In this document: piece after piece, positions 3,001 to 35,146 of the stretch
Layout: every line of letters starts with the position of its first letter
How positions within the stretch are numbered: the first letter of the stretch is position 1
NCBI GenBank assembly: GCA_000014925.1
Contig: CP000474.1
Span: 1,550,001 to 1,614,000, forward strand
DNA: 64,000 bases
Origin: Paenarthrobacter aurescens TC1
Lineage (GTDB): Bacteria; Actinomycetota; Actinomycetes; Actinomycetales; Micrococcaceae
Direction of reading: 5' to 3'
Made by a program: the position numbers and the translations under genes
Notes under the pieces: model-generated
Database searches by the model: none
Seen by the model: the letters and a program-made list of their open reading frames with translations, nothing else
What the model was told of the DNA's origin: nothing

Positions 3001-3557
3001 CGTACGGGCCGCCGAACGCGCCGAACGTCAATGGCGGGAAATCGCCCAAGGGCGACGACAAGGTGCACTTCACGTGGAACAACCCGCCCATGAATGGCCG
3101 TCCACTCGAGTATTTCGAAGTGTCGCTGGACGGCGGCAGTTGGACGAACGTTGGAAAGGCGAACCAATACAATCCGGATGGCGGCCGCTGGGACAAGCCG
3201 CACACCCTGCGGGTCCGGGCGGTGACCCTAGTGGCTGGCCCCGCAGGTAGCGCCAACGCAACCAGTGGTGACGACCCCGCCCCACCACCGCCAACATCCT
3301 GGGCTATCCAAGCCACACCGGTGCGGACCTGTACGGAGCCAAACAGCGGCACGGACAGCTACAGGGACACAAATCCGGACCAATGCATCAGCCCCGGCAA
3401 GTGGTTTGACACCGGCTACACGGCCCAAGCGGACCGCTACGTCCAATGGAGCCGGATCTGGTATCACATCAGCTCGGGTCCCACTGCCGGAAACTACGCA
3501 AGGTGCGACACCACGTCCCTCGGGTGTAAACCGCCGAGCGGAATGCCAGGCCCGTAA
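3..3557 (+). CDS. Giant Ig-like/fibronectin-III repeat surface protein (5' partial)
   Basis: The frame is open from base 3 without a start, so the N-terminus lies outside the window; 1184 residues are visible. The first half carries cadherin-like/Big_9-type repeats about 95 residues apart, marked by DPDGD-like calcium-site motifs near nt 205, 491, 790 and 1378. From about nt 1890 come at least three fibronectin type III domains (PxxP...LxVxWxxP...GSPIxxY), with a further FN3-like segment near nt 3010. The last 90 residues hold four cysteines and many aromatics. No C-terminal membrane helix or LPXTG signal is present, so anchoring, if any, would be N-terminal. It heads the MoxR-DUF58-kinase-EssC locus on the same strand. 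The role is inferred: an extracellular structural or adhesive protein whose export or assembly could involve the downstream genes. Confidence 0.85.
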   Translation, partial: FIAGPTPKTVRAIYNAVDPQGQKSAAAVTIHILPLEGTQNSRPQPQNLTARVVAGGSVRIPVPLDGIDPDGDSVQLTGIDSTPTMGTATAGSSFIDFVAAGDGAGTDTFRYKVIDRQGAVNTGTVTVGVAPRGEDNQKPAPVDDEVKVRPGRQIAVDATANDTDPDGDIIRILTDSIQADAGLDAKVSKTSGRILVTAPAAEGTVNVRYSVADDRDAVGQASIRVVVQNDLPLQAPIARDDRVTSAQTLGKTAVDVPVLKNDEDPDGVGENLKVATGLETARPGPEGNVIVDLTEQPQLVPYTVEDVDGQKSTAIIWVPGIGQQVPTLAKDEVVELVSGQSVTVNLAEWVKVREGRTPRLTQTDRIKLIGADGSDPVANGGTALKYTAGAEYVGPGSISFEVTDGTGPDDPNGLKSTLSIRTKVLPDPNKNNPPVLLGSDVEVPKGDSASLDLEKLTSDPDQDDVQNMGYELVGAAQGGFKVNVEGKTLKVSADDSVQIGQSGTVQVKAKDRRGLEAVATYKLSLSASNRPKPVANDDTEPEAQSGKPVTVNVLANDSNPFPETPLKIVAAATETGSGNADVSGDSITVTPAPGFTGTMVVSYTVADKTGETSRYATARVRLTVKDKPVVPTTPIAQSVGDRTALLTWTAPADRGSPITKYTVYGEGGFKQDCPANTCTLTGLTNNVKYHFAVTATNAIGESERSPASAEVRPDVKPDTPVAPTLKFGDKQLSVAWVPPASKGSPIKSYDLEISPAPAGQNPQIQNLTANSHVWTGLTNGVAYKVRVLARNDAKEPSEWSTYSAAETPAGVPATPAAPSVAGAGSVGTQSQLQVSWAAPNNNGDAVSAYTLTTYMGGAVVATQSVAATSQNVTVANSEADYTFTVSATNKAGVSGVSQQSAAIRAAGKPGTVGSGSVKATGDSGQLQVTFTPLTAAERNGSQDNEITYRWQTAHGSGAIARGGGIIGGQPNGTDVVVNIIASSVKNGMAGDAKNVGTGNPYGPPNAPNVNGGKSPKGDDKVHFTWNNPPMNGRPLEYFEVSLDGGSWTNVGKANQYNPDGGRWDKPHTLRVRAVTLVAGPAGSANATSGDDPAPPPPTSWAIQATPVRTCTEPNSGTDSYRDTNPDQCISPGKWFDTGYTAQADRYVQWSRIWYHISSGPTAGNYARCDTTSLGCKPPSGMPGP

Positions 3558-24411: not shown

Positions 24412-25446
24412 TTACCGCAATGAACGACGACGCCGGGCCGGCTCCGTCAGCCACGCCGGTTCATAGCCCGCATCAGCGGTGTTGAGGGTGGTCCCTGGAG
24501 GAACGATCTGGTCGATCCTGTCCAGCACATCGGGTGACAGGGTGAGCTTGTCCGCCCCGAGGGCTGCTTCAAGGTGTTCCAGCGTGCGCGGTCCGATGAT
24601 CGCAGAGGTCACCGCCGGGTGTTCGAGGACGAAGGCCAGCGCGAGGTGGATCAGCGACAGTCCTGCTTGATCGGCCAGCTCCGTCAGCTCGAGCACGGCC
24701 TTCGTTTTGAGGGCGTTCCCGGGCAGGTCCGGATCGTGCCGGGCTGGTTGGCGACCCGCGCGGCTTGACGGAAGGTGCGCGCCGTCGGCCTTGATCCGAC
24801 CGGACAACCAGCCTCCGGCGAGCGGGCTCCACGGAAGCACCCCGAGTCCGTGCTGCTGCGCCAGCGGCAGGACCTCCCGTTCTGCGCCACGAGCCAGGAT
24901 GGAATACGGCGGCTGCTCCGTGACAGGCCGTTCCCGGTGGCGTTCTTGGGCAACGTACTGGGCCTCGACGATCTGGCCGGGAAGGAACGTAGACGTACCG
25001 ATGTAACGAATCTTGCCCTGGCTGACGAGGTCGCTGAGCGCACCCAGTGTTTCGTCGATGTCCGTGTCGGGATCCGGCCGGTGCACTTGGTATAGGTCGA
25101 TCCAGTCTGTCTGCAGCCTGCGGAGACTGTCCTCAACTTCGCGGATGATCCAGCGGCGCGAATTGCCGGCCTGGTTCACGTCGTCGCCGAGGCGTCCATG
25201 GACCTTGGTAGCCAGGACAACCTGATCGCGCCGACCCTTCAGTGCCTTGCCCACGATCTCCTCGGACTCGCCCTGAGAGTACACATCGGCGGTGTCCACC
25301 AGGTTGATGCCGGCGTCCAGCGCCCTGTGGATGATGCGGATGCTGTCGTCGTGGTCAGGGTTGCCGATGGCCCCGAACATCATGGTCCCCAACGTCAGTT
25401 GGCTGACCTTGACGCCGGTTCGCCCCAGGTTCCGGTACTCGGTCAT
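24412..25446 (-). CDS. Aldo/keto reductase
   Basis: 344 residues of the NADPH-dependent aldo/keto reductase superfamily. The N-terminus MTEYRNLGRTGVKVSQLTLG is typical. The catalytic tetrad is visible as Asp and Tyr in DTADVYS, Lys in ATKVHG and His in YQVHRPDPD. C-terminal IIGPRTLEHLEAAL matches the cofactor-binding region. It is the last gene of the minus-strand sulfonate-type operon and its ATG overlaps the monooxygenase stop by one base. It may reduce the aldehyde or ketone left after oxidative C-S cleavage; that link is inference. Confidence 0.92.
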   Translation of the reverse strand: MTEYRNLGRTGVKVSQLTLGTMMFGAIGNPDHDDSIRIIHRALDAGINLVDTADVYSQGESEEIVGKALKGRRDQVVLATKVHGRLGDDVNQAGNSRRWIIREVEDSLRRLQTDWIDLYQVHRPDPDTDIDETLGALSDLVSQGKIRYIGTSTFLPGQIVEAQYVAQERHRERPVTEQPPYSILARGAEREVLPLAQQHGLGVLPWSPLAGGWLSGRIKADGAHLPSSRAGRQPARHDPDLPGNALKTKAVLELTELADQAGLSLIHLALAFVLEHPAVTSAIIGPRTLEHLEAALGADKLTLSPDVLDRIDQIVPPGTTLNTADAGYEPAWLTEPARRRRSLR

Positions 25447-26813
25447 TAGAACGCCGATCCGATGGACGTGAGCTGCTGTCCCTCGGAACCGGCGTAACGG
25501 TTCTCGGGACGGGCCAACCCGTAGTGTCCGCGGAGAGTGGACTCGGTGTATTCGGTACGGAACAGGCCGCGGTGCTGGAGGATCGGTACTACCTGGTCCA
25601 CGAAGATCTCCAGGCCGGAGGGGAGGACCGGGGGCATGATGTTGAAGCCGTCGGCCGCGCCCGCGAAGAACCAGTCCTGGATGGCGTCCGCCACCTGCTC
25701 CGGCGTTCCGGAGAACGTGCGGTGGCCACGTCCGCCGCCCAAGCGGCCGATCAGCTGCCGGACCGTGAGCTGCTCGCGACGAGCCAGTTCCACAATCAGC
25801 GTGTAGCGGCTCTTGGCACCCTCGATGTCGTCCTCGGAGGGAAGATCGGCGGGCAGTTGGCGGTCCAGAGGAAGGTCTTCGGGCTTCAAACGCAAGGTCT
25901 TGGCCAACTGCTCCCGGGCGTACTCCGGCTTGATAAGTTCGTCGAGTTCACGCTCAAGTTTCAGGGCTTCGGCCTCCGTGGAACCAATCACCGGGACGAT
26001 GCCCGGGAGGATCTTGATGCCTTCCGGGTCGCGGCCCACAGCTGCGGTTCGTGCCTTGAGGTCTGAGTAGAAAGCTTGGGCGTCAGCCAATGTCTGGTGC
26101 GCGGTGAACACGGCTTCGGCGTACTGTGCAGCAAGCTTCTTGCCGTCCTCGGAGGACCCTGCCTGAACGATCAGTGGGTGGCCCTGCGGCGAGCGGGGAA
26201 CATTGAGCGGGCCGCGCACACGGAAGTGCTTGCCCTCGTGTTCAATAGCCCGGATCTTGTTGTCGTCACCCCACACGCCCTCGGCTTTGTCTGCGAGCAC
26301 GGCGTCGTCCTCCCAGCTGTCCCACAGCTTCTGGGCTACCTCGATGAACTCGGCTGCCCGCTCGTAACGGACAGCGTGTGCCGGCTGGTCATCCACGCCG
26401 AAGTTCCTCGCAGCGTCCGGTCCCGCCGTCGTGACGACGTTCCAACCAGCGCGGCCGCCGCTGACCCAGTCCACCGACGCGAAGCGGCGTGCCAGGTTGA
26501 AGGGGTCGTTGTAGGTAGTAGAAGCGGTGGCGATCAGGCCGATCTTCTGCGTTGCCGCGGCGATGGCTGTCAGCAGCACTGTAGGTTCCAGTTTGCCGGC
26601 AGGGCGGCGGCCCACCTCGCCGAACAGGACGGGGGAGTCCGCGAAGAAGATGGAGTCCAGCTTTCCGCGTTCAGCCGCCCGGGCCAGGTGCTGGTAGTGC
26701 TCAACCTTGGTGGAGGAGAGAGGATCGCTTTCGGGCAAGCGCCACGAGGCCTCGTGGTGGCCTGTGCTCATGAGGAAAGCGTTCAGGTGGAGCTTGCGCT
26801 GTGGTTCAGTCAT
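25446..26813 (-). CDS. LLM class flavin-dependent monooxygenase (NtaA/SnaA/DszA type)
   Basis: 455 residues, the usual length for the NtaA/SnaA/SoxA/DszA branch of bacterial luciferase-like monooxygenases. Recognisable blocks are LNAFLMSTGHHEASWR at the N-terminus, IGLIATASTTYNDPFNLARRFASVD near residue 100 and GRAGWNVVTTAGPDAARNFG near 125. Such enzymes use FMNH2 and oxygen supplied by a separate flavin reductase. Being in an operon with a sulfonate-type importer suggests desulfurisation of an organosulfur compound. The ATG sits behind AAGGAG. No flavin reductase gene is present nearby. Confidence 0.93.
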   Translation of the reverse strand: MTEPQRKLHLNAFLMSTGHHEASWRLPESDPLSSTKVEHYQHLARAAERGKLDSIFFADSPVLFGEVGRRPAGKLEPTVLLTAIAAATQKIGLIATASTTYNDPFNLARRFASVDWVSGGRAGWNVVTTAGPDAARNFGVDDQPAHAVRYERAAEFIEVAQKLWDSWEDDAVLADKAEGVWGDDNKIRAIEHEGKHFRVRGPLNVPRSPQGHPLIVQAGSSEDGKKLAAQYAEAVFTAHQTLADAQAFYSDLKARTAAVGRDPEGIKILPGIVPVIGSTEAEALKLERELDELIKPEYAREQLAKTLRLKPEDLPLDRQLPADLPSEDDIEGAKSRYTLIVELARREQLTVRQLIGRLGGGRGHRTFSGTPEQVADAIQDWFFAGAADGFNIMPPVLPSGLEIFVDQVVPILQHRGLFRTEYTESTLRGHYGLARPENRYAGSEGQQLTSIGSAF

Positions 26814-26847: not shown

Positions 26848-27576
26848 TTAGGCAGCAGAATGGACGCCGAGGGCTTCGAGCAGTTCGCCCCTCAGCGCTG
26901 AATGGTCGACGGCGGTTCCAGCCTTGCGCTCAAGGGCTACACGGCCGCCTTGGAGGACGACGACGCGGTCGGCCAAGGTGATGGCCTCGTCGACGTCGTG
27001 GGTTACGAGCAGGACCGCCGGGCGGTGCGCGGCGACCAGGTCCTTCAGGAGTGCATGCATTTTCAACCGGGTGAGGGCATCCAGCGCACCGAAAGGTTCA
27101 TCGGCCAACAGCAGCTTGGGCTCGCGCACCAGCGACCTCGCCAAGGCGACGCGCTGCTGTTCCCCGCCGGACAGTTCGTGTGGCCACGCCTTTTCGCGAC
27201 CGGCGAGTCCCACTTCGGCGAGCGCGCGGCGGCCGCGGGCATCGGCGTCGTGATCCCTGAGTCCCAAGGTGACGTTGCCCAACACGGTGTCCCACGGCAG
27301 CAGGCGCGAGTCCTGGAACACCACGGACACCTGCTCCGGGACCTTCACCACTCCGCTGCCGCGGACGTCACCGTCCAGTCCGGCGAGGGCACGCAGCAGG
27401 GTGCTCTTGCCGCAGCCGCTGGGGCCGAGGAGGGCAACGAACTCGCCCGGTGCGATATCAAGGTCCACCCCGTTGAGTACGCCTTTCGGGCCGAAGCTGC
27501 GAATGAGGTTCCGGACGGAGACTTCGTAGGAGGGGCCGGTCCGGAGGGTGCTTAGCCCGCCAGTGTGCGTTGCCAC
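26848..27576 (-). CDS. ABC transporter ATP-binding protein (SsuB/TauB type)
   Basis: 242 residues from GTG 27576; the frame is open much further upstream but that part only shadows the permease. Walker A GPSGCGKST, signature LSGGEQQRVALARS, Walker B LLLADEPFGALD and the H-loop VTHDVDEA are complete. It energises the sulfonate/nitrate-type importer with the permease at 27552 and the lipoprotein at 28487. The start lies 25 bases inside the permease gene, indicating coupling. Confidence 0.93.
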   Translation of the reverse strand: MATHTGGLSTLRTGPSYEVSVRNLIRSFGPKGVLNGVDLDIAPGEFVALLGPSGCGKSTLLRALAGLDGDVRGSGVVKVPEQVSVVFQDSRLLPWDTVLGNVTLGLRDHDADARGRRALAEVGLAGREKAWPHELSGGEQQRVALARSLVREPKLLLADEPFGALDALTRLKMHALLKDLVAAHRPAVLLVTHDVDEAITLADRVVVLQGGRVALERKAGTAVDHSALRGELLEALGVHSAA

Positions 27577-28484
27577 GACAATGCCTTTCGTTCCAGGAGC
27601 CGGACGGCTGCGTCGGAAACCAGTCCCAGGACGCCGTAGACCGCCAGGCCGAGGACGATGATGTTTGTTTGTCCGTAGGTGCGGGCGAGCTCCATCATGT
27701 AGCCGATGCCGCTGGTGGAGTTGATCTGTTCCACCACCACCAAGGACACCCAGGCGCCGGTGACGGCGAAACGAAGCCCCAGGAAGAATCCCGGCAACGC
27801 TCCCGGTAGTACTACGCGGCGAATGAACCCGGCCCGGCTCAGGCCCACCGTTTGCGCCAGTTCGACGTACCGCAGGTCGATGCCCCGCAAACCAGCATGG
27901 GTCTGGAGGTAGATGGGGACGAATACGCCCAAAGTGATGGTGAGGACCTTCATGGTTTCGTCGATGCCGAACCAGAGGATCAGCAGGGGGATCAGGGCGA
28001 GTCCGGGAATGGCCCGCTTGATCTGCACTGGACCGTCGATCAGCGACTCGCCTACGCGGCTCAGCCCGGAAAGGACCGCCAGTACGGCACCCACCACGAT
28101 CCCGAAGAACAATCCCAAACCTGCACGCTGGGCCGAGATCGCCAGGTTCTCCTGGAGTCGGCCGTCTGCGATCAATTCGCCCGCCGTGGAGACCACGGTC
28201 CAAGGCTCGGACAGGATCCGGGGATCCAGCAGGCCCGTCGCCGAAGCAACCACCCACAATAGGATCAACGCGGCAGGACCCACCAAGCCCGCAAAGCGGC
28301 GACGCTTCCCGGGGCCCAGGCGGCGGCTCGCCGGGCGGACATCCGGCCTGCCGGTGAGGTTCGGGTCGAGGTGAGGTTCGACGCCGGAACCCGGGTGAGT
28401 AGCGACGTCGCTTCTTGGCGGAGGTGCGGTTCCTGGCGGGGGAGCGGTGACCGTAGCCGTGCGCCGGGCAGCAGTGGTGGTCAT
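27552..28484 (-). CDS. ABC transporter permease (SsuC/TauC type)
   Basis: 310 residues. About 75 hydrophilic N-terminal residues precede six membrane helices. The EAA-like coupling loop is visible in the second half (AQTVGLSRAGFIRRVVLPGALPGFFLGLRF is characteristic; only its position near residues 205-235 is given weight here). It forms the membrane channel for import of an aliphatic sulfonate-like substrate. The start lies two bases after the lipoprotein stop, so the operon is compact. Confidence 0.93.
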   Translation of the reverse strand: MTTTAARRTATVTAPPPGTAPPPRSDVATHPGSGVEPHLDPNLTGRPDVRPASRRLGPGKRRRFAGLVGPAALILLWVVASATGLLDPRILSEPWTVVSTAGELIADGRLQENLAISAQRAGLGLFFGIVVGAVLAVLSGLSRVGESLIDGPVQIKRAIPGLALIPLLILWFGIDETMKVLTITLGVFVPIYLQTHAGLRGIDLRYVELAQTVGLSRAGFIRRVVLPGALPGFFLGLRFAVTGAWVSLVVVEQINSTSGIGYMMELARTYGQTNIIVLGLAVYGVLGLVSDAAVRLLERKALSWQRTLAG

Positions 28485-28486
28485 GG

Positions 28487-29596
28487 CTACGCCCCCTTTC
28501 CAGCGGCCGCGTAGGCCGTGCCGCCGATGGCCTCAAAGCGGAGGTCGTACAACTTGGCGGCATCCAGCTTGGGCTTCTGCTGTTCCTTGGCGAGGAGGTC
28601 GATGGTCTGCTGATGCCGGGCAATGGCCTCGGTCCAGGACGTGGGGAGGTCGCGCTCGCCGGCGGCATCGATCAGGTACTGGCCGTCCTCGGCGGAAAGC
28701 CCCTGGTTCTTGACGTAGTAGCCCTCAAGCCATTCCTTGGGGTGGTCCTGGATCCAGCGTTGGGCCTGTCCCCAGATTTCGACGTACTCGGCAAGCGCCG
28801 CAGCTTTTGCCGGATCGTCAAGCACGTTGGCCGGAGCGTACAGGTGGCCGGGATCGTCCCTGAGGCCGTGCCGCAGCGTTGTTCCGCCGTCGGCGCCGTA
28901 CTTGGCCAGGTACCGCTTGATCTGGACGCCGCCCAAAGGCGCTGCGTCCACCTGCTTGCTGGACAGGGCTGTGGAGTAGGTGTCACCCGTGCTGGGTAGT
29001 TCCACGAGCTTCACGTCTTTTTGCTGCAGGCCGGCCTTTTCCAGGATGCGCAGCACCAGGGCCCCTTGCGCTTGGCCGGGGCTGTACGCGATCTTCTTGC
29101 CGCGAAGGCCGTGGAGGTCAGTGATGCCCGCACCGGGTGCCACACCCAGTTCGTACAACGGGTGGTTCACGGCATCCTGGCGGTAGACGCTGGCGATGAT
29201 GCGGACCTCCAGCCCCGTCCACGTCGCGTGGATGGGAGGAATGTCCGCCACTGAACCTACATCCAGGGCGTTGGCCCGGAACGCTTCAGTAGTGGCAGGG
29301 CCGCCGGAGATGTTGGCGAACTTCACGGGGAAGCTGAGCTTCTTGTCCAGGCCGGAAAGTTCAAGGGCCACCTGCACGGACGGGTCGCCCACTACCAGCG
29401 TGGTGCCTTCCGGAACGGTGGTGGCCAGCGGGGCGGTGACCTGTGCCGCCTGCGTGGCTACGCCTCCGGCCGCTGCTGGTCCGCCGCAAGCGGTCAACAG
29501 GCCCAGGGCGGGAATGGCGAGAAGGGTGCCGAGGATTTGGCGGCGGTTCGGGGGTGTTGTGGGGAGTTTTTGGGCGCGGAGGGACGCGGAAAACAT
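28487..29596 (-). CDS. ABC transporter substrate-binding lipoprotein (SsuA/TauA type)
   Basis: 369 residues. The N-terminus has basic residues, a hydrophobic core (ILGTLLAIPALG) and the lipobox LLTAC near residue 36, so the mature protein is a lipid-anchored receptor. The body matches sulfonate/nitrate/taurine-type binding proteins (LRGKKIAYSPGQAQG, DVGSVADIPP). It is the first structural gene of the minus-strand operon. GAAAGG precedes the ATG by about six bases. Ligand specificity is not readable; an alkanesulfonate or other organosulfur compound is the best guess because of the neighbouring LLM monooxygenase and the Cys-rich leader peptide. Confidence 0.92.
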   Translation of the reverse strand: MFSASLRAQKLPTTPPNRRQILGTLLAIPALGLLTACGGPAAAGGVATQAAQVTAPLATTVPEGTTLVVGDPSVQVALELSGLDKKLSFPVKFANISGGPATTEAFRANALDVGSVADIPPIHATWTGLEVRIIASVYRQDAVNHPLYELGVAPGAGITDLHGLRGKKIAYSPGQAQGALVLRILEKAGLQQKDVKLVELPSTGDTYSTALSSKQVDAAPLGGVQIKRYLAKYGADGGTTLRHGLRDDPGHLYAPANVLDDPAKAAALAEYVEIWGQAQRWIQDHPKEWLEGYYVKNQGLSAEDGQYLIDAAGERDLPTSWTEAIARHQQTIDLLAKEQQKPKLDAAKLYDLRFEAIGGTAYAAAGKGA

Positions 29597-29671
29597 GCAA
29601 AGCCTTTCAGGTGCGGGAGGGGTCGCTGCTGCCCGGAGCCAAGGGCATCGGCGGCGCAGCGGTACAGATCG

Positions 29672-29743
29672 CTAGTTCTGAAGGCAGGACGGACAGCAGG
29701 AGTGAGCCTGAGTTACGTGTGCTGGGACATCGGTCTTGGGCAT
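29672..29743 (-). CDS. Cys-rich leader peptide upstream of the sulfonate-type operon
   Basis: A 23-codon frame with ATG at 29743 and TAG ending at 29672, preceded by a perfect AGGAGG five bases from the ATG. The peptide starts MPKTDVPAH and ends HSCCPSCLQN, placing three Cys codons (TGC, TGT, TGC) within five codons, seven to three codons before the end. It ends 75 nt before the lipoprotein ATG. Poly-Cys short frames act as cysteine-responsive attenuators ahead of sulfur genes in mycobacteria (established precedent). By analogy, ribosome stalling at the Cys codons when cysteine is scarce would raise expression of the importer operon. Translation is predicted only; the strong ribosome site and the context support it. 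Confidence 0.7.
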   Translation of the reverse strand: MPKTDVPAHVTQAHSCCPSCLQN

Positions 29744-30053
29744 CGGTTCCTCCTGTTCTGTGTGCACGAAGTTTTCACGGCCGGGCTTTGCCGTGTGGTA
29801 ACTCAAGCACGCCCGCATTGCCCCGCGCCAGCGTTTCGACATCTACGCGCAACAGCACGAAACCGGGGTTCACCGCACGCAACGCGGCTCAATTCGACGC
29901 CACGGGAGGCAACACAAAAGCAGCCCAGAGGCACCCGCCTGAACAGCGCGGGCCAACCATTCGGCGTCGTGCGTTCCAGACGTGACTGATAGTTCCATCA
30001 CGGAAAGAGGCCTTTGGCGCGGCGGCCGCCGCCAGCACGACTACCATTGGTAG
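29744..30053. other. Divergent intergenic region without a recognised gene
   Basis: About 310 bases separate the leader peptide from the divergent GNAT gene. It should hold the operon promoter on the minus strand, but I see no clear sigma-70 hexamer pair and no match to a known riboswitch. TACCAT at 30042-30047 lies seven bases from the GNAT GTG, a spacing typical of a -10 box for a leaderless transcript. Confidence 0.4.
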
Positions 30054-31086: not shown

Positions 31087-31746
31087 TCAGGCGGGGATGC
31101 CGTAGCGGTGTTCCGGACGGCCCGTACTTCCGTAGCGGAGCTGGATCTCGACGGCGCCATCATCCGCGAGCGAGGACAGGTACCTTTGCGCCGTGGCCCG
31201 GGAAACGCCCACCCTCTCCGCAACCTCGGCAGCTGAGTACTGCTCCCCGGGAAGCAACGATTCCAGGACCGCAGCCTCTGTGGCGGAACGGGGCTTGGCT
31301 GACGGCGTGACATCTCCCGGGATCAGGGACCGTTTGGCGCGTTCAATGGTGGTTTGGTCAACGGCTGTCTGCTGCCCCAGGATCCGCCGATACCGCGCGT
31401 AGGACCGGAGTTGCTGGGACAGTGACTCAGCGGTGAACGGTTTCAGCATGTACCCAAGCGCGCCGCGCCGCAGGGCAACCCTGATGGATTGGGCGTCAGA
31501 GGCCGCTGTCAGCATGAGGGCGTCGACGTCCAGTTGACCCAACAGATCCAAGCCGGAGCCGTCCGGGAGATACACGTCCAGCAGCACCAGATCAGGACGA
31601 AGGCTGTGAATCGCCTGCAGTGCCTGTGAAACCGACCCAGCCGGCGCCAAAGCCATGAAGCCGGCCACGGAATCCACATAGGCTGCATGGAGCCGTGCCA
31701 CGTGGAAGTCGTCGTCCACGATCAACACCCGCAAATCCTCAGCCAT
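31087..31746 (-). CDS. Response regulator of a citrate/C4-dicarboxylate-type two-component system
   Basis: 219 residues of the CitB/DcuR family. The receiver domain has the acidic pair in LIVDDDFH, the phospho-acceptor Asp57 in LVLLDVYLPDG and the conserved Lys in YMLKPF. The C-terminal part (from about residue 155) is a helix-turn-helix module (YSAAEVAERVGVSRATAQRY). Its start overlaps the kinase stop by eight bases. It probably activates the divergent CitMHS transporter gene at 33638. Confidence 0.94.
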   Translation of the reverse strand: MAEDLRVLIVDDDFHVARLHAAYVDSVAGFMALAPAGSVSQALQAIHSLRPDLVLLDVYLPDGSGLDLLGQLDVDALMLTAASDAQSIRVALRRGALGYMLKPFTAESLSQQLRSYARYRRILGQQTAVDQTTIERAKRSLIPGDVTPSAKPRSATEAAVLESLLPGEQYSAAEVAERVGVSRATAQRYLSSLADDGAVEIQLRYGSTGRPEHRYGIPA

Positions 31747-33463
31747 TGCTGTCCTCCCTCAACGTTGAGTCGGCACCTGTGCCCGCATGCTCCGCGGAAT
31801 CCATGACGCCGGGGATGGTCGCCATGAACACGGCGCCGGGACCGCCGCTGCTGCCGGGCTCCAGGACGCGGACATCGCCGCCACGCCGCCGCGCAAGCTG
31901 CCGCACCAGCGCCAGCCCCAAACCTTGTCCAGCCCCTGAGCGTACCGGTTGTTCCGACGTCGTAAATCCTTCGGCGAAAACCTCTTCCGGTTCCAGGCTC
32001 CCCAAACCGTCGCCGGAATCGCCCACCAGGATGTGCAGGGTCCCGCCGTTCTCAGTGGCGTCGTCCAGCAGTTCGACTTCCACCCATCGTTCCGCTGACA
32101 AGCCGGCAACGGCGGCACTCACCGCGTTGTCGATCAGGTTGCCGAGCACCGTGGTGACGTCTTGTGGATCGGCCACGTGCCCACGGACCAGTGTTTCGGG
32201 GCCGATGCGGAGGGCCACGCCGCGCTCCGAAGCCTCCACGCCTTTCGCGCCAACGAAGGCCTGCAGATACGTGTCCTGGAGCAATTCGGCCTGCTCCACG
32301 GGGAACTTCAGCGGACCAGTGGCCGAGATCCGGGCCAGGTATTCCTTGGCGGCGTGGTGTTGGCCGATGCTCATGAAACCGGCAATGGTGTGGAGTTGGT
32401 TGGCGAACTCGTGGCGCTGGGCGCGCAGGGCTGTGGACATGGTCCCCACGGCGTCGAGCTGGCGGGTGAGTTGCTGCAATTCCGTGCGATCCCGCAGAAT
32501 GACCACCCAGCCAAGATCCTCTTGCCGATGCCAGGCTTTGCGAGCGCTGGCCACCAGAACGCGTCCGCCCGCCACGACTTCCACGGCCTCGGCGTCCCGG
32601 GCCGCAGGCTGCGTGAGCTGTTTGAGCTGTTCAGGGACGGCCGCCGATGCCCAGTCCTGGCCGGTGGCATCCGGCATGTCCAAGAGCCTTGCTGCGGCGG
32701 CGTTGAACACGGAGATCCGTCCGTCTGCGGCAACGCCGATCACACCATCATCCACGCCTTGGAGCACCGCCACTTGGTCGTGGACCAAGGTGCTGATCTC
32801 TTCCGGTTCCAAGCCGAGGGTGAGTCGTTGGAGCCTGCGACGGAGCAGGAAGGAGGCCAGGACGCCGGCAAGCAGCGAGCCGCCGGCGGTGAGTGCAATG
32901 GGCACAATGTCGCGGGCAAGGCTGTTGCTGAGGGACTCCACGGAATAGCCAACGCTGACCTCGCCCACGATTGTGGTGGAGTTCTCCGGAGCGTACACCG
33001 GCACCTTCGCCCCCGCCGATGGCCCCAACGTTCCCGTGTTGCGGGTGGTGATCTCTTGCCCGCCCAGCGCCACTGAAGGGTCTGTGCTGACGCGTTCACC
33101 CAGCCGCGCCGTCTCAGGGTGCGCCAGGCGCAGGCCGGTTTCGTCCGTAATCACCACGAACAGGGCCCCAGTCCGCACTCGCACAGCTTCGGCCGCCGCT
33201 TGAAGTCTTCCGGCGGCGAGGACATCCGGGGGAGGGGTTCCTTCTTCTTTGCTGATGGTTTGCACGCCGGACCTGATCTCGGGATCCGCGGCGACGGTCC
33301 TGGCAAGGGTGAGTGCTTGGTTTTCGGCTTCGGTGCCGATGCGTTCATAGACCAGCCACGCATGGACCGTCCCGCTGAGCAGGACCACCAGCAGGACAAC
33401 CCCTAGCTGGAGGAGAAGGGTTTGGGTGGAGAAACGCATGCTGACCCGGCTGTTGCGCGGCAC
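31739..33463 (-). CDS. Sensor histidine kinase (CitA/DcuS type)
   Basis: 574 residues from GTG 33463, chosen for the GGAGGAAAGGAG just upstream; an earlier in-frame start at 33523 has none. The layout is: membrane helix near residues 15-37, extracytoplasmic sensor domain to about 185 (matching the PASTA-free CitA/DcuS sensor fold), second helix near 190-210, cytoplasmic PAS domain, then the kinase with the His box LRAQRHEFANQLH and ATPase motifs NLIDNAVSAA and GDSGDGLG. It likely senses extracellular citrate or a related carboxylate and phosphorylates the coupled regulator. Confidence 0.94.
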   Translation of the reverse strand: MPRNSRVSMRFSTQTLLLQLGVVLLVVLLSGTVHAWLVYERIGTEAENQALTLARTVAADPEIRSGVQTISKEEGTPPPDVLAAGRLQAAAEAVRVRTGALFVVITDETGLRLAHPETARLGERVSTDPSVALGGQEITTRNTGTLGPSAGAKVPVYAPENSTTIVGEVSVGYSVESLSNSLARDIVPIALTAGGSLLAGVLASFLLRRRLQRLTLGLEPEEISTLVHDQVAVLQGVDDGVIGVAADGRISVFNAAAARLLDMPDATGQDWASAAVPEQLKQLTQPAARDAEAVEVVAGGRVLVASARKAWHRQEDLGWVVILRDRTELQQLTRQLDAVGTMSTALRAQRHEFANQLHTIAGFMSIGQHHAAKEYLARISATGPLKFPVEQAELLQDTYLQAFVGAKGVEASERGVALRIGPETLVRGHVADPQDVTTVLGNLIDNAVSAAVAGLSAERWVEVELLDDATENGGTLHILVGDSGDGLGSLEPEEVFAEGFTTSEQPVRSGAGQGLGLALVRQLARRRGGDVRVLEPGSSGGPGAVFMATIPGVMDSAEHAGTGADSTLREDSNG

Positions 33464-33637
33464 CTTCGCTCCTTTCCTCCTGATCCATTGAATCACTGAG
33501 CACAATGCGCAAAACGTTCGCAACGAGCAGTATTCCCAACAATTCCCCGAAACCCCTGCCCGTGACGGAGGCCACCATATTGTCTGTAGTGCGCATCACA
33601 CCGACGTGGCGCCATTCACAGTAGTAAGGAGCCGGCC

Positions 33638-35146
33638 GTGCTGGTTTTGCTTGGATTCGCAATGATTGCGGTATTCATGGTCCTGATCATGACCAAAAAA
33701 TTGACGCCAGTACTGGCGCTGATCATCGTCCCCACAGTCTTCGGCCTCTTCGCCGGAGCGGGCCTCGGCATCGGCGACATGGTGATGGACTCAATGAAGT
33801 CCATGACGTCCACGGCCGCGCTCCTCATGTTCGCCATCATCTACTTCGGCCTGATGATCGACGTCGGACTGTTCGACCCCCTGGTGAAGTTCATCCTGCG
33901 CAAGTTGGGCAACGACCCCGCCAAAGTGGTCCTCGGCACCGCCATCCTGGCAGCCGCAGTCTCCTTGGATGGCGACGGATCCACCACCTTCATCCTGACC
34001 ACGGCCGCCATGCTCCCCGTCTACTTGCGGCTCAAGATGAGCCCCGTGGTCCTCACCTGCGTGGCCGGCCTCGCCAACGGCACCATGAACATCCTGCCCT
34101 GGGGCGGCCCTACGGCCCGCGCGGCCACCGCACTTCACCTGGATGTCAACGACGTCTTCGTTCCCATGGTCCCGTCACTCATCGTTGGCCTCATCGTGGT
34201 TCTGGTGTTCGCTTGGTTGCTCGGCCTGCAGGAACGCAACCGCCTCCGCACCACCGCTCCCGAGATCTGGGGCGACGTCGCGGATCCTTCGGAAGCGTTC
34301 GACGGCGGCACGCGCCGCGGCGGTTCGGTTGCCGCGGGTTCGGGTTCGGGCTTCGGCGTCGGCGGAGGCCGCTTCAGTTTCGGCCGCAACTCCTCTGCCG
34401 CAACTGCAGCCAAGCCGGGCACCGGCGGAGGTTCCGGCGTCGCGGTTCTTGAAGACCCGGCCACGCTGGTGGACGATCACGACACCGCTATGGCAGACAC
34501 CGCCCTGGACCCCAACCGCACTACGCTGCGTCCCAAGCTGTTCTGGTTCAACCTTGGCCTGACCGTCGCTGTGATGGTGGTCCTGGTGGCCAACATTGTC
34601 CCGCTGCCGTTCGTGTTCATGGTGGGCTCCGCGATCGCACTGCTGGTCAACTTCCCCAAGGTCAAGGACCAGGGCGCCCAGCTGATCGCCCACGCACCGT
34701 CCATCGTCGCCGTCGTCAGCATGGTCATGGCCGCCGCAGTCCTTACCGGTGTCCTCAACGGCACGGGCATGGTCAAGGCAATGTCCGAGTGGCTCGTCCA
34801 AATCATTCCCGCCGAAATGGGACCGTTCATGGCAGTCATCACCGGGCTTCTGAGCATCCCGATGACGTTCTTCATGAGCAACGACGCCTTCTACTTTGGG
34901 GTCCTGCCGGTCCTTTCCGAAACCGCCGCTCACTACGGCGTGGATGCAGTGGACATGGCCCGCGCCTCCATCACCGGGCAGCCCTTCCACCTGCAGAGCC
35001 CCCTGGTGCCGGCTATCCTCCTGCTGGTTTCCCTCGCCAAGGTGGATCTGGGCGACCACCACAAGAAGGTCCTCTGGCGCACGGCCGTGATCTCGGTGGT
35101 CATGCTGGCAGTCGGTGTTCTGACCGGGGCCATCGGCATCGGCTAA
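33638..35146 (+). CDS. CitMHS family citrate-metal/proton symporter
   Basis: 502 residues with about 12 hydrophobic segments. Family-typical stretches are DGDGSTTFILTTAAMLP near residue 110 and LPWGGPTARAA near 152. Members import citrate complexed to Mg or Ca with protons. A hydrophilic Gly/Ser/Asp-rich loop of about 85 residues (about 205-290) sits in the middle, longer than I would expect. The GTG start follows AAGGA. It lies divergent to the CitA/CitB-type two-component system, 174 bases away, the usual arrangement for citrate induction. Confidence 0.93.
   Translation: MLVLLGFAMIAVFMVLIMTKKLTPVLALIIVPTVFGLFAGAGLGIGDMVMDSMKSMTSTAALLMFAIIYFGLMIDVGLFDPLVKFILRKLGNDPAKVVLGTAILAAAVSLDGDGSTTFILTTAAMLPVYLRLKMSPVVLTCVAGLANGTMNILPWGGPTARAATALHLDVNDVFVPMVPSLIVGLIVVLVFAWLLGLQERNRLRTTAPEIWGDVADPSEAFDGGTRRGGSVAAGSGSGFGVGGGRFSFGRNSSAATAAKPGTGGGSGVAVLEDPATLVDDHDTAMADTALDPNRTTLRPKLFWFNLGLTVAVMVVLVANIVPLPFVFMVGSAIALLVNFPKVKDQGAQLIAHAPSIVAVVSMVMAAAVLTGVLNGTGMVKAMSEWLVQIIPAEMGPFMAVITGLLSIPMTFFMSNDAFYFGVLPVLSETAAHYGVDAVDMARASITGQPFHLQSPLVPAILLLVSLAKVDLGDHHKKVLWRTAVISVVMLAVGVLTGAIGIG

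Follow-up and report, generated by a model that had tools for sequence, protein, structure and literature searches.

The window (the whole 64,000-nt stretch of the Paenarthrobacter aurescens TC1 genome analysed here) carries five genes on the minus strand that, from ssuA on, probably form one operon (Table 1). Homology points to organosulfur use as its likely role. Since the SsuA, SsuB and SsuC matches fall below the curated cut-offs, the substrate, though probably some organosulfur compound, need not be an alkanesulfonate. Among the PDB relatives of the monooxygenase are YtnJ, MoxC and DszA. The named SsuA loci (n = 17) belong to Arthrobacter, Paenarthrobacter or Pseudarthrobacter (e.g., P. 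nitroguajacolicus, 93%). Elsewhere in the window (31087-35146), a multi-pass permease gene on the plus strand lies next to minus-strand genes for a response regulator and a sensor kinase, as judged by their translations; together they resemble a unit that senses and takes up citrate or dicarboxylates.

Table 1. Positions in the window of the leader features and of the genes downstream.
Feature	Positions	Strand	Basis or remark
Conserved upstream box: GCTGGC 29832-29827, GTGCTTGAGT 29810-29801	29801..29832	-	Recurs upstream of ssuA
Shine-Dalgarno AGGAGG of leader frame	29749..29754	-	5 nt 5' of ATG, read directly
Leader frame, 23 codons, MPKTDVPAHVTQAHSCCPSCLQN, stop TAG	29672..29743	-	ATG 29743, TAG 29674-29672
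Putative Cys-Cys sensor codons 16-17 (TGC TGT)	29693..29698	-	In-frame pair in 23/25 leaders
Third Cys codon, codon 20 (TGC)	29684..29686	-	Arg in close relative L015
Candidate anti-Shine-Dalgarno GCCUUCAG, overlaps codons 20-22	29678..29685	-	Invariant 6/6; predicted pairing
ssuA Shine-Dalgarno region CUGAAAGGC, predicted sequestered	29602..29610	-	Invariant 6/6
SsuA-like substrate-binding lipoprotein, first gene	28487..29596	-	TIGR01728 SsuA_fam 89.8 bits (cut-off 163.5); NMT1 PF09084 43.8 (cut-off 20.5)
SsuC-like permease	27552..28484	-	PRK11365 SsuC 214.4 bits (cut-off 347); PF00528 93 bits
SsuB-like ATPase, start codon provisional	26848..27549	-	Aliphatic sulfonate ATPase NF008420 222.9 bits, best NCBIfam (cut-off 395); PF00005 103.5
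NtaA/DmoA-family FMN-dependent monooxygenase	25446..26813	-	TIGR03860 563.9 bits (cut-off 279.7)
Aldo/keto reductase, last gene of probable operon	24412..25446	-	PF00248 261.8 bits

A short frame precedes ssuA. The sequence-only reading had described 23 codons with AGGAGG and an ATG, 75 nt ahead of an SsuA-type gene and rich in Cys in its distal part, and direct reading of the letters confirmed each of these points. The Cys codons are the 16th, 17th and 20th of 23, clustered near the end of the frame, and 75 nt separate the leader stop from the ssuA ATG at 29596. The strand, which had not been given, is minus. The strong Shine-Dalgarno, 5 nt before the ATG, marks the frame, by its sequence, as not of the leaderless type. 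Among 13 other AGGAGG-led ATG frames of 10 to 45 codons, none has Cys-Cys and one has at least three Cys; this null is small (545,791 bases with overlapping loci included and duplicate sites removed, two of the 13 frames lying inside the window). A chance frame was rejected on conservation together with this null, and the conservation among orthologues (23/25, see below) is the stronger argument. The leader peptide has no match in NCBIfam or Pfam, and the single Rfam match lies on the opposite strand at 17.6 bits against a gathering score of 77; a catalogued RNA or peptide family was rejected on that basis.

Conservation and distribution of the leader

The SsuA protein has a match at an E value of 1e-60 in 39 of 206 genomes of the genus. 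All 39 ssuA upstream regions were examined, 38 by script and one by eye. A GGAGG-led ATG frame with Cys codons was found upstream of ssuA in 25 genomes. The remaining 14 of 39 show no GGAGG-led leader there, under a rule (GGAGG, 3 to 9 nt, ATG) that takes no account of Cys content and that would count leaders with weaker starts as leader-less. The GGAGG and ATG are identical in 20 of 20 aligned relatives, an agreement that holds by construction because they are the selection rule. The Cys content lies outside the rule. A Cys-Cys pair stands at codon 14, 16, 17 or 18 from the ATG in 23 of the 25 leaders, at a start-to-pair distance of 39, 45, 48 or 51 nt. The search for the pair was in frame, so a frame shift would appear as absence. 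Two leaders lack the pair: L028, with Cys-Trp at the same place, and L035, with Cys-Pro-Pro-Arg-Ser-Cys. The third Cys is less constant than the pair (e.g., Arg in L015). L018 and L020 are the same peptide, which leaves 24 distinct peptides among the 25 leaders. The pair is spelled TGC TGT, TGT TGC, TGT TGT or TGC TGC. With such synonymous spellings it is the amino acids that are kept and not just one nucleotide string, which argues for selection on codons and not on RNA alone.

Unlike the Cys pair, the remaining residues, the peptide length and the stop vary from leader to leader. From stop to ssuA there are 75, 76 or 77 nt in the clade of the window, differing by 1 or 2 nt even between close relatives, and 130 to 340 nt elsewhere. 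Up to 21 codons follow the Cys pair in the other clade (L005), where end-clustering is weaker. The leaders of L031 and L034 lie further upstream and contain four and seven Cys codons. One genome (G183; L041 and L058) has its ssuA match in two pieces in different frames, which could reflect a disrupted gene or an error in sequencing. Loss of the Cys codons in close relatives had been set beforehand as the observation that would speak against the leader; what was found is Cys-Cys in 23 of 25 leaders, from 25 of the 39 ssuA genomes. It was concluded that the Cys-codon leader is real, that it is conserved and that it belongs to an organosulfur operon. That the pair is kept in most ssuA-bearing relatives suggests ribosome-based sensing of cysteine shortage, and sensing of cysteine by the leader is very likely, as judged from these comparisons. 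The earlier proposal of a Cys-sensing, Shine-Dalgarno-led leader outside the mycobacterial family gains support from the same conservation.

A maximum-likelihood tree was built from 34 SsuA proteins of at least 300 residues, with a midpoint root used for drawing only. Leader-bearing loci fall on both sides of this root. The leader label needs at least three changes on the SsuA tree (bootstrap 3-3; 0/500 shuffles as low). One ancestral leader, later lost three times (in L019, in L033 and in a seven-member clade of the tree), fits this pattern; reading the changes as losses depends on the root. The start-to-pair distance changed at least five times by hand count, always by whole codons.

Upstream of the leader, a box of the form GCTGG(C)C ... 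GTG(C/T)TT(G/A)(A/G)GTG is present in leader-bearing and leader-less groups alike, where the alignment reaches that far; the leader-less clade retains it as GCTGGCC ... GTG(C/T)TTRRGTG. No match to the sigma-70 consensus was found upstream. From its recurrence in sequence the box is probably a promoter. In Arthrobacter globiformis NBRC 12137 (G074, L053; match at 3001) the promoter-like box is found about 40 nt ahead of ssuA; the ssuA gene there has an AGGAGG of its own, and the leader region is absent. At six of the nine loci L002-L010 (L002, L004, L006, L007, L009 and L010), MAPGCPxC-type Cys frames that start at ATG or GTG and have no Shine-Dalgarno lie 5' of the promoter-like box. This stretch contains repeated TTGC motifs and GGCGCCATAAGTAGCGCC, conserved in the leader-less clade, and is probably upstream regulatory DNA; the MAPGCPxC frame might instead be a leaderless Cys frame.

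A sequence-only model was built from 20 leaders. Searched against the genome of the window, it gave one strong match, the window leader (E = 7.2e-10), the next having E = 0.167. The search was extended, with stricter filters, to 204 genomes of the genus, of which 29 match the model at E = 0.001. Twenty-five of these matches are the known ssuA leaders, 20 of them used to build the model; the remaining four are weak, with E = 2.4e-4 to 7.4e-4. Among the weak ones, L115 (G150, position 1500) has a start context and Shine-Dalgarno nearly identical to those of the ssu leaders and no Cys pair; its genome has no ssuA match, and it is perhaps what remains of an operon since lost. In L116 a Cys-Cys frame starts at a second ATG, and L117 and L118 are apparently unrelated. 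As there is no other strong match, the recognisable leader belongs to the ssu operon. A set of Cys leaders in the genome ("ribulon") was considered and none was recognised, with leaders of unlike sequence escaping such a model. Around other sulfur or NMT1-type genes, seven regions were searched for frames that follow a Shine-Dalgarno and contain either Cys-Cys or three Cys; a loose Shine-Dalgarno rule returned a few, and no leader was recognised among them. Upstream of two gene starts in one region, scanned without a Shine-Dalgarno filter, no frame starting at ATG or GTG contained two Cys. The two starts are those of a sulfite-reductase-like gene of a cys cluster (named by translation) and of an NMT1-type gene.

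Predicted pairing with the ssuA Shine-Dalgarno and features of the other clade

Six sequences make up the clade of the window: L001 (the window), L013, L014, L015, L016 and L017. From the Cys codons onward they share the block TGCTGTCCGyCCyGCCTTCAGAA, in which two columns vary, both by nonsynonymous transitions. Within this block lies GCCUUCAG, which is complementary to CUGAAAGGC with one bulge. As both segments are invariant, a ribosome stalled for want of Cys-tRNA could free the ssuA start. When the fold was calculated from the leader Shine-Dalgarno, the mean pairing probability was 1.0 in L001, 0.9 in L013, 0.05 in L014, 0.99 in L015, 0.94 in L016 and 0.5 in L017. When it was calculated from just 3' of the Cys pair, the pairing probability was 0.99 to 1.0 in all six.

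Stalling was simulated by masking a 31-nt ribosome footprint and computing the energy to open the ssuA start. A footprint on the last Cys lowered this cost in L001 (10.9 to 5.5 kcal/mol), L013 (9.7 to 8.8), L015 (8.0 to 4.2) and L016 (10.2 to 6.9), and raised it in L014 (6.7 to 8.1) and L017 (6.7 to 7.3). Placed on the second Cys, the footprint lowered the cost in the same four sequences (L001 6.7, L013 9.3, L015 4.2, L016 8.8 kcal/mol). On the first Cys it did so in L001 alone (10.9 to 9.0), with no fall in the other five. A footprint at the stop codon gave 7.1 kcal/mol in L001, 8.3 in L013, 8.3 in L014, 3.2 in L015, 7.3 in L016 and 8.3 in L017, i.e., relief again in L001, L013, L015 and L016, exceeding the last-Cys relief in L013 and L015. 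Stalling and termination therefore look alike in this static calculation, and a sequestration model needs the terminating ribosome to depart quickly.

The consensus energy does not stand out from that of column shuffles (39/300 as low, z = -1.26), and a leader:Shine-Dalgarno duplex of equal strength occurs in 13% of shuffled leaders. Because the sequestering stem is identical in all six sequences, it offers no covariation; an inner pair (UA to CG) does covary, in two sister sequences. The case for sequestration rests therefore on the invariance of both segments within a drifting spacer and on the position of GCCUUCAG where a stall at codons 17 to 20 would fall. A Shine-Dalgarno switch is plausible in the clade of the window.

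The other clade (17 leaders in one alignment) behaves differently in these calculations, a footprint on the last Cys changing the opening energy by -1.1 (L029) to +1.1 (L023) kcal/mol. RNAalifold on all 17 sequences gave almost no structure, and the clade was accordingly split into three subgroups, 14 sequences in total (without L004, L005 and L035). One subgroup of seven (L018, L020, L021, L023, L026, L029 and L032) has a long GC-rich hairpin, GCCGGCGCGUCGG...CCGACGCCGGC, between the leader and ssuA, with 16 predicted pairs and small interruptions; the sequence 3' of it is rich in C and not in U. Two-sided changes occur in none of the 41 consensus pairs of this subgroup. The predicted hairpin is perhaps the attenuator output there. 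Shortly after the Cys codons, 14 of the 17 sequences (not L004, L005 and L032) have CCGAATG, which reads in frame as Arg-Met (CGA ATG). Six of the subgroup of seven have a second CCGAATG, and a complementary CTTCGG lies downstream, as if for alternative pairings. All 25 leaders are C-rich between the Cys pair and the ssuA Shine-Dalgarno (C 0.38-0.48, G 0.21-0.30; whole window C 0.32, G 0.31), a composition compatible with Rho action. The other clade probably uses another output, so that the sensor looks conserved across clades and the output does not.

Attenuation model and alternatives

We favour, with moderate confidence, a ribosome-mediated cysteine attenuator whose output is sequestration of the ssuA Shine-Dalgarno through GCCUUCAG:CUGAAAGGC pairing. 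The mRNA would start upstream of the leader, and ribosomes would load at the AGGAGG and translate it. With Cys-tRNA plentiful, they would pass the Cys codons and exit at the UAG; GCCUUCAG would then pair with CUGAAAGGC and the ssuA start would be closed. When Cys-tRNA is short, a ribosome stalled at codon 17 or 20 would cover GCCUUCAG, the ssuA Shine-Dalgarno would be open, and the organosulfur importer and monooxygenase would be made. The output would be translational and not transcriptional.

The same Cys-codon sensor could instead act on transcription, with a stalled ribosome blocking Rho loading or the formation of a terminator-like hairpin and with the Shine-Dalgarno pairing incidental. 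The C-rich spacer of all 25 leaders relative to the window baseline and the GC-rich hairpin of the subgroup of seven agree with such an output, and Rho has been proposed for mycobacterial cys leaders (available text of PMC1262725). We nevertheless regard it as unlikely: it leaves the invariant complementarity in the clade of the window unexplained, and no intrinsic-terminator pattern was found between the leader and ssuA in the window, the one listed site being upstream of the leader. The two outputs may also be divided between clades. In such a scheme a single genus would hold one conserved Cys-codon sensor with differing outputs (sequestration in the clade of the window, another in the sister clade, perhaps terminator-like) and about three losses of the leader. 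We put this forward tentatively, as less likely than not.

A role for leader translation without cysteine sensing, either by translational coupling and reinitiation or through a small Cys peptide with its own function, appears improbable to us. Short leader genes have been proposed to raise downstream expression via reinitiation (available text of PMC4833913), and in the fold calculation for the window the ssuA start also becomes easier to open with a ribosome at the stop codon; the stop-to-ssuA distance of 75 to 340 nt is nevertheless too great for simple coupling. As for a functional peptide, besides the start and the Cys pair nothing is conserved across groups except Arg-Met (14 of 17, in one clade). 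Least probable of all, in our judgement, is that the frame is incidental and that DNA or RNA elements alone are conserved. Codons 16-22 in the clade of the window show no synonymous change and two nonsynonymous columns, a pattern which puts part of the constraint at the nucleotide level. An incidental frame would nevertheless not account for a pair that is written with different synonymous codons across clades and stays in frame despite changes in length.

Relation to known cysteine leaders

Stalled ribosomes on the polycysteine leaders of mycobacteria reportedly free a sequestered ribosome-binding site. Cysteine-dependent translation attenuation by the polycysteine frames of M. smegmatis was described by Canestrari et al. 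(2020, Mol Microbiol 114:93-108), as cited in the available parts of PMC13236596 and PMC9031893. Conserved Cys-rich leaderless uORFs of mycobacteria had appeared in 2015 (PMC4633059, in part), and the available text of PMC9094748 treats the base usage of six related frames in M. tuberculosis. Like the mycobacterial polycysteine short ORFs, as these sources present them, the leader of the window is short, lies ahead of sulfur genes and has its Cys codons in a cluster. It differs in having a strong Shine-Dalgarno, in belonging to another actinobacterial group (Arthrobacter) and in preceding an organosulfur importer operon, and, unlike the mycobacterial set, it is found as one strong model match per genome, at the ssu operon.

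Cys-rich leaders were predicted in 2005 for the cys operons of Mycobacterium and P. acnes and for cbs of B. longum, with Rho suggested (PMC1262725, available text). These share with our leaders the Cys runs near the stop of a short frame, the place upstream of sulfur genes, the occurrence in Actinobacteria and the lack of a clear terminator; they differ in genes and families and in the suggestion of Rho, and no anti-Shine-Dalgarno is reported for them in the available portion of that paper. The LEU element of actinobacterial leuA, from the same partial source, resembles the proposed switch in that sensor codons pair with the downstream Shine-Dalgarno in one structure, and differs in sensing leucine and in having a conserved pseudoknot. 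The uORFC-8-2 motif, a short frame upstream of cysS in Rhodobacterales, has two tandem Cys codons as sensor, there usually at positions 14-15, and differs from the present case in its intrinsic-terminator output, its alphaproteobacterial hosts and its tRNA synthetase gene (PMC8632094, available text). The literature searched yielded no cysteine leader described for Arthrobacter or for an ssu operon.

The 25 leader-bearing and 14 leader-less loci offer a direct test bed for the evolution of sensor and output in attenuators. If the outputs do differ between clades, the genus would provide a natural series in which the output of an attenuator is replaced while its sensor stays. If the leader acts as proposed, ribosome-based sensing of cysteine would reach from mycobacteria to Arthrobacter and its relatives, which are common soil bacteria, and it would apply to organic sulfur use instead of cysteine synthesis, the leader having an ordinary Shine-Dalgarno start.
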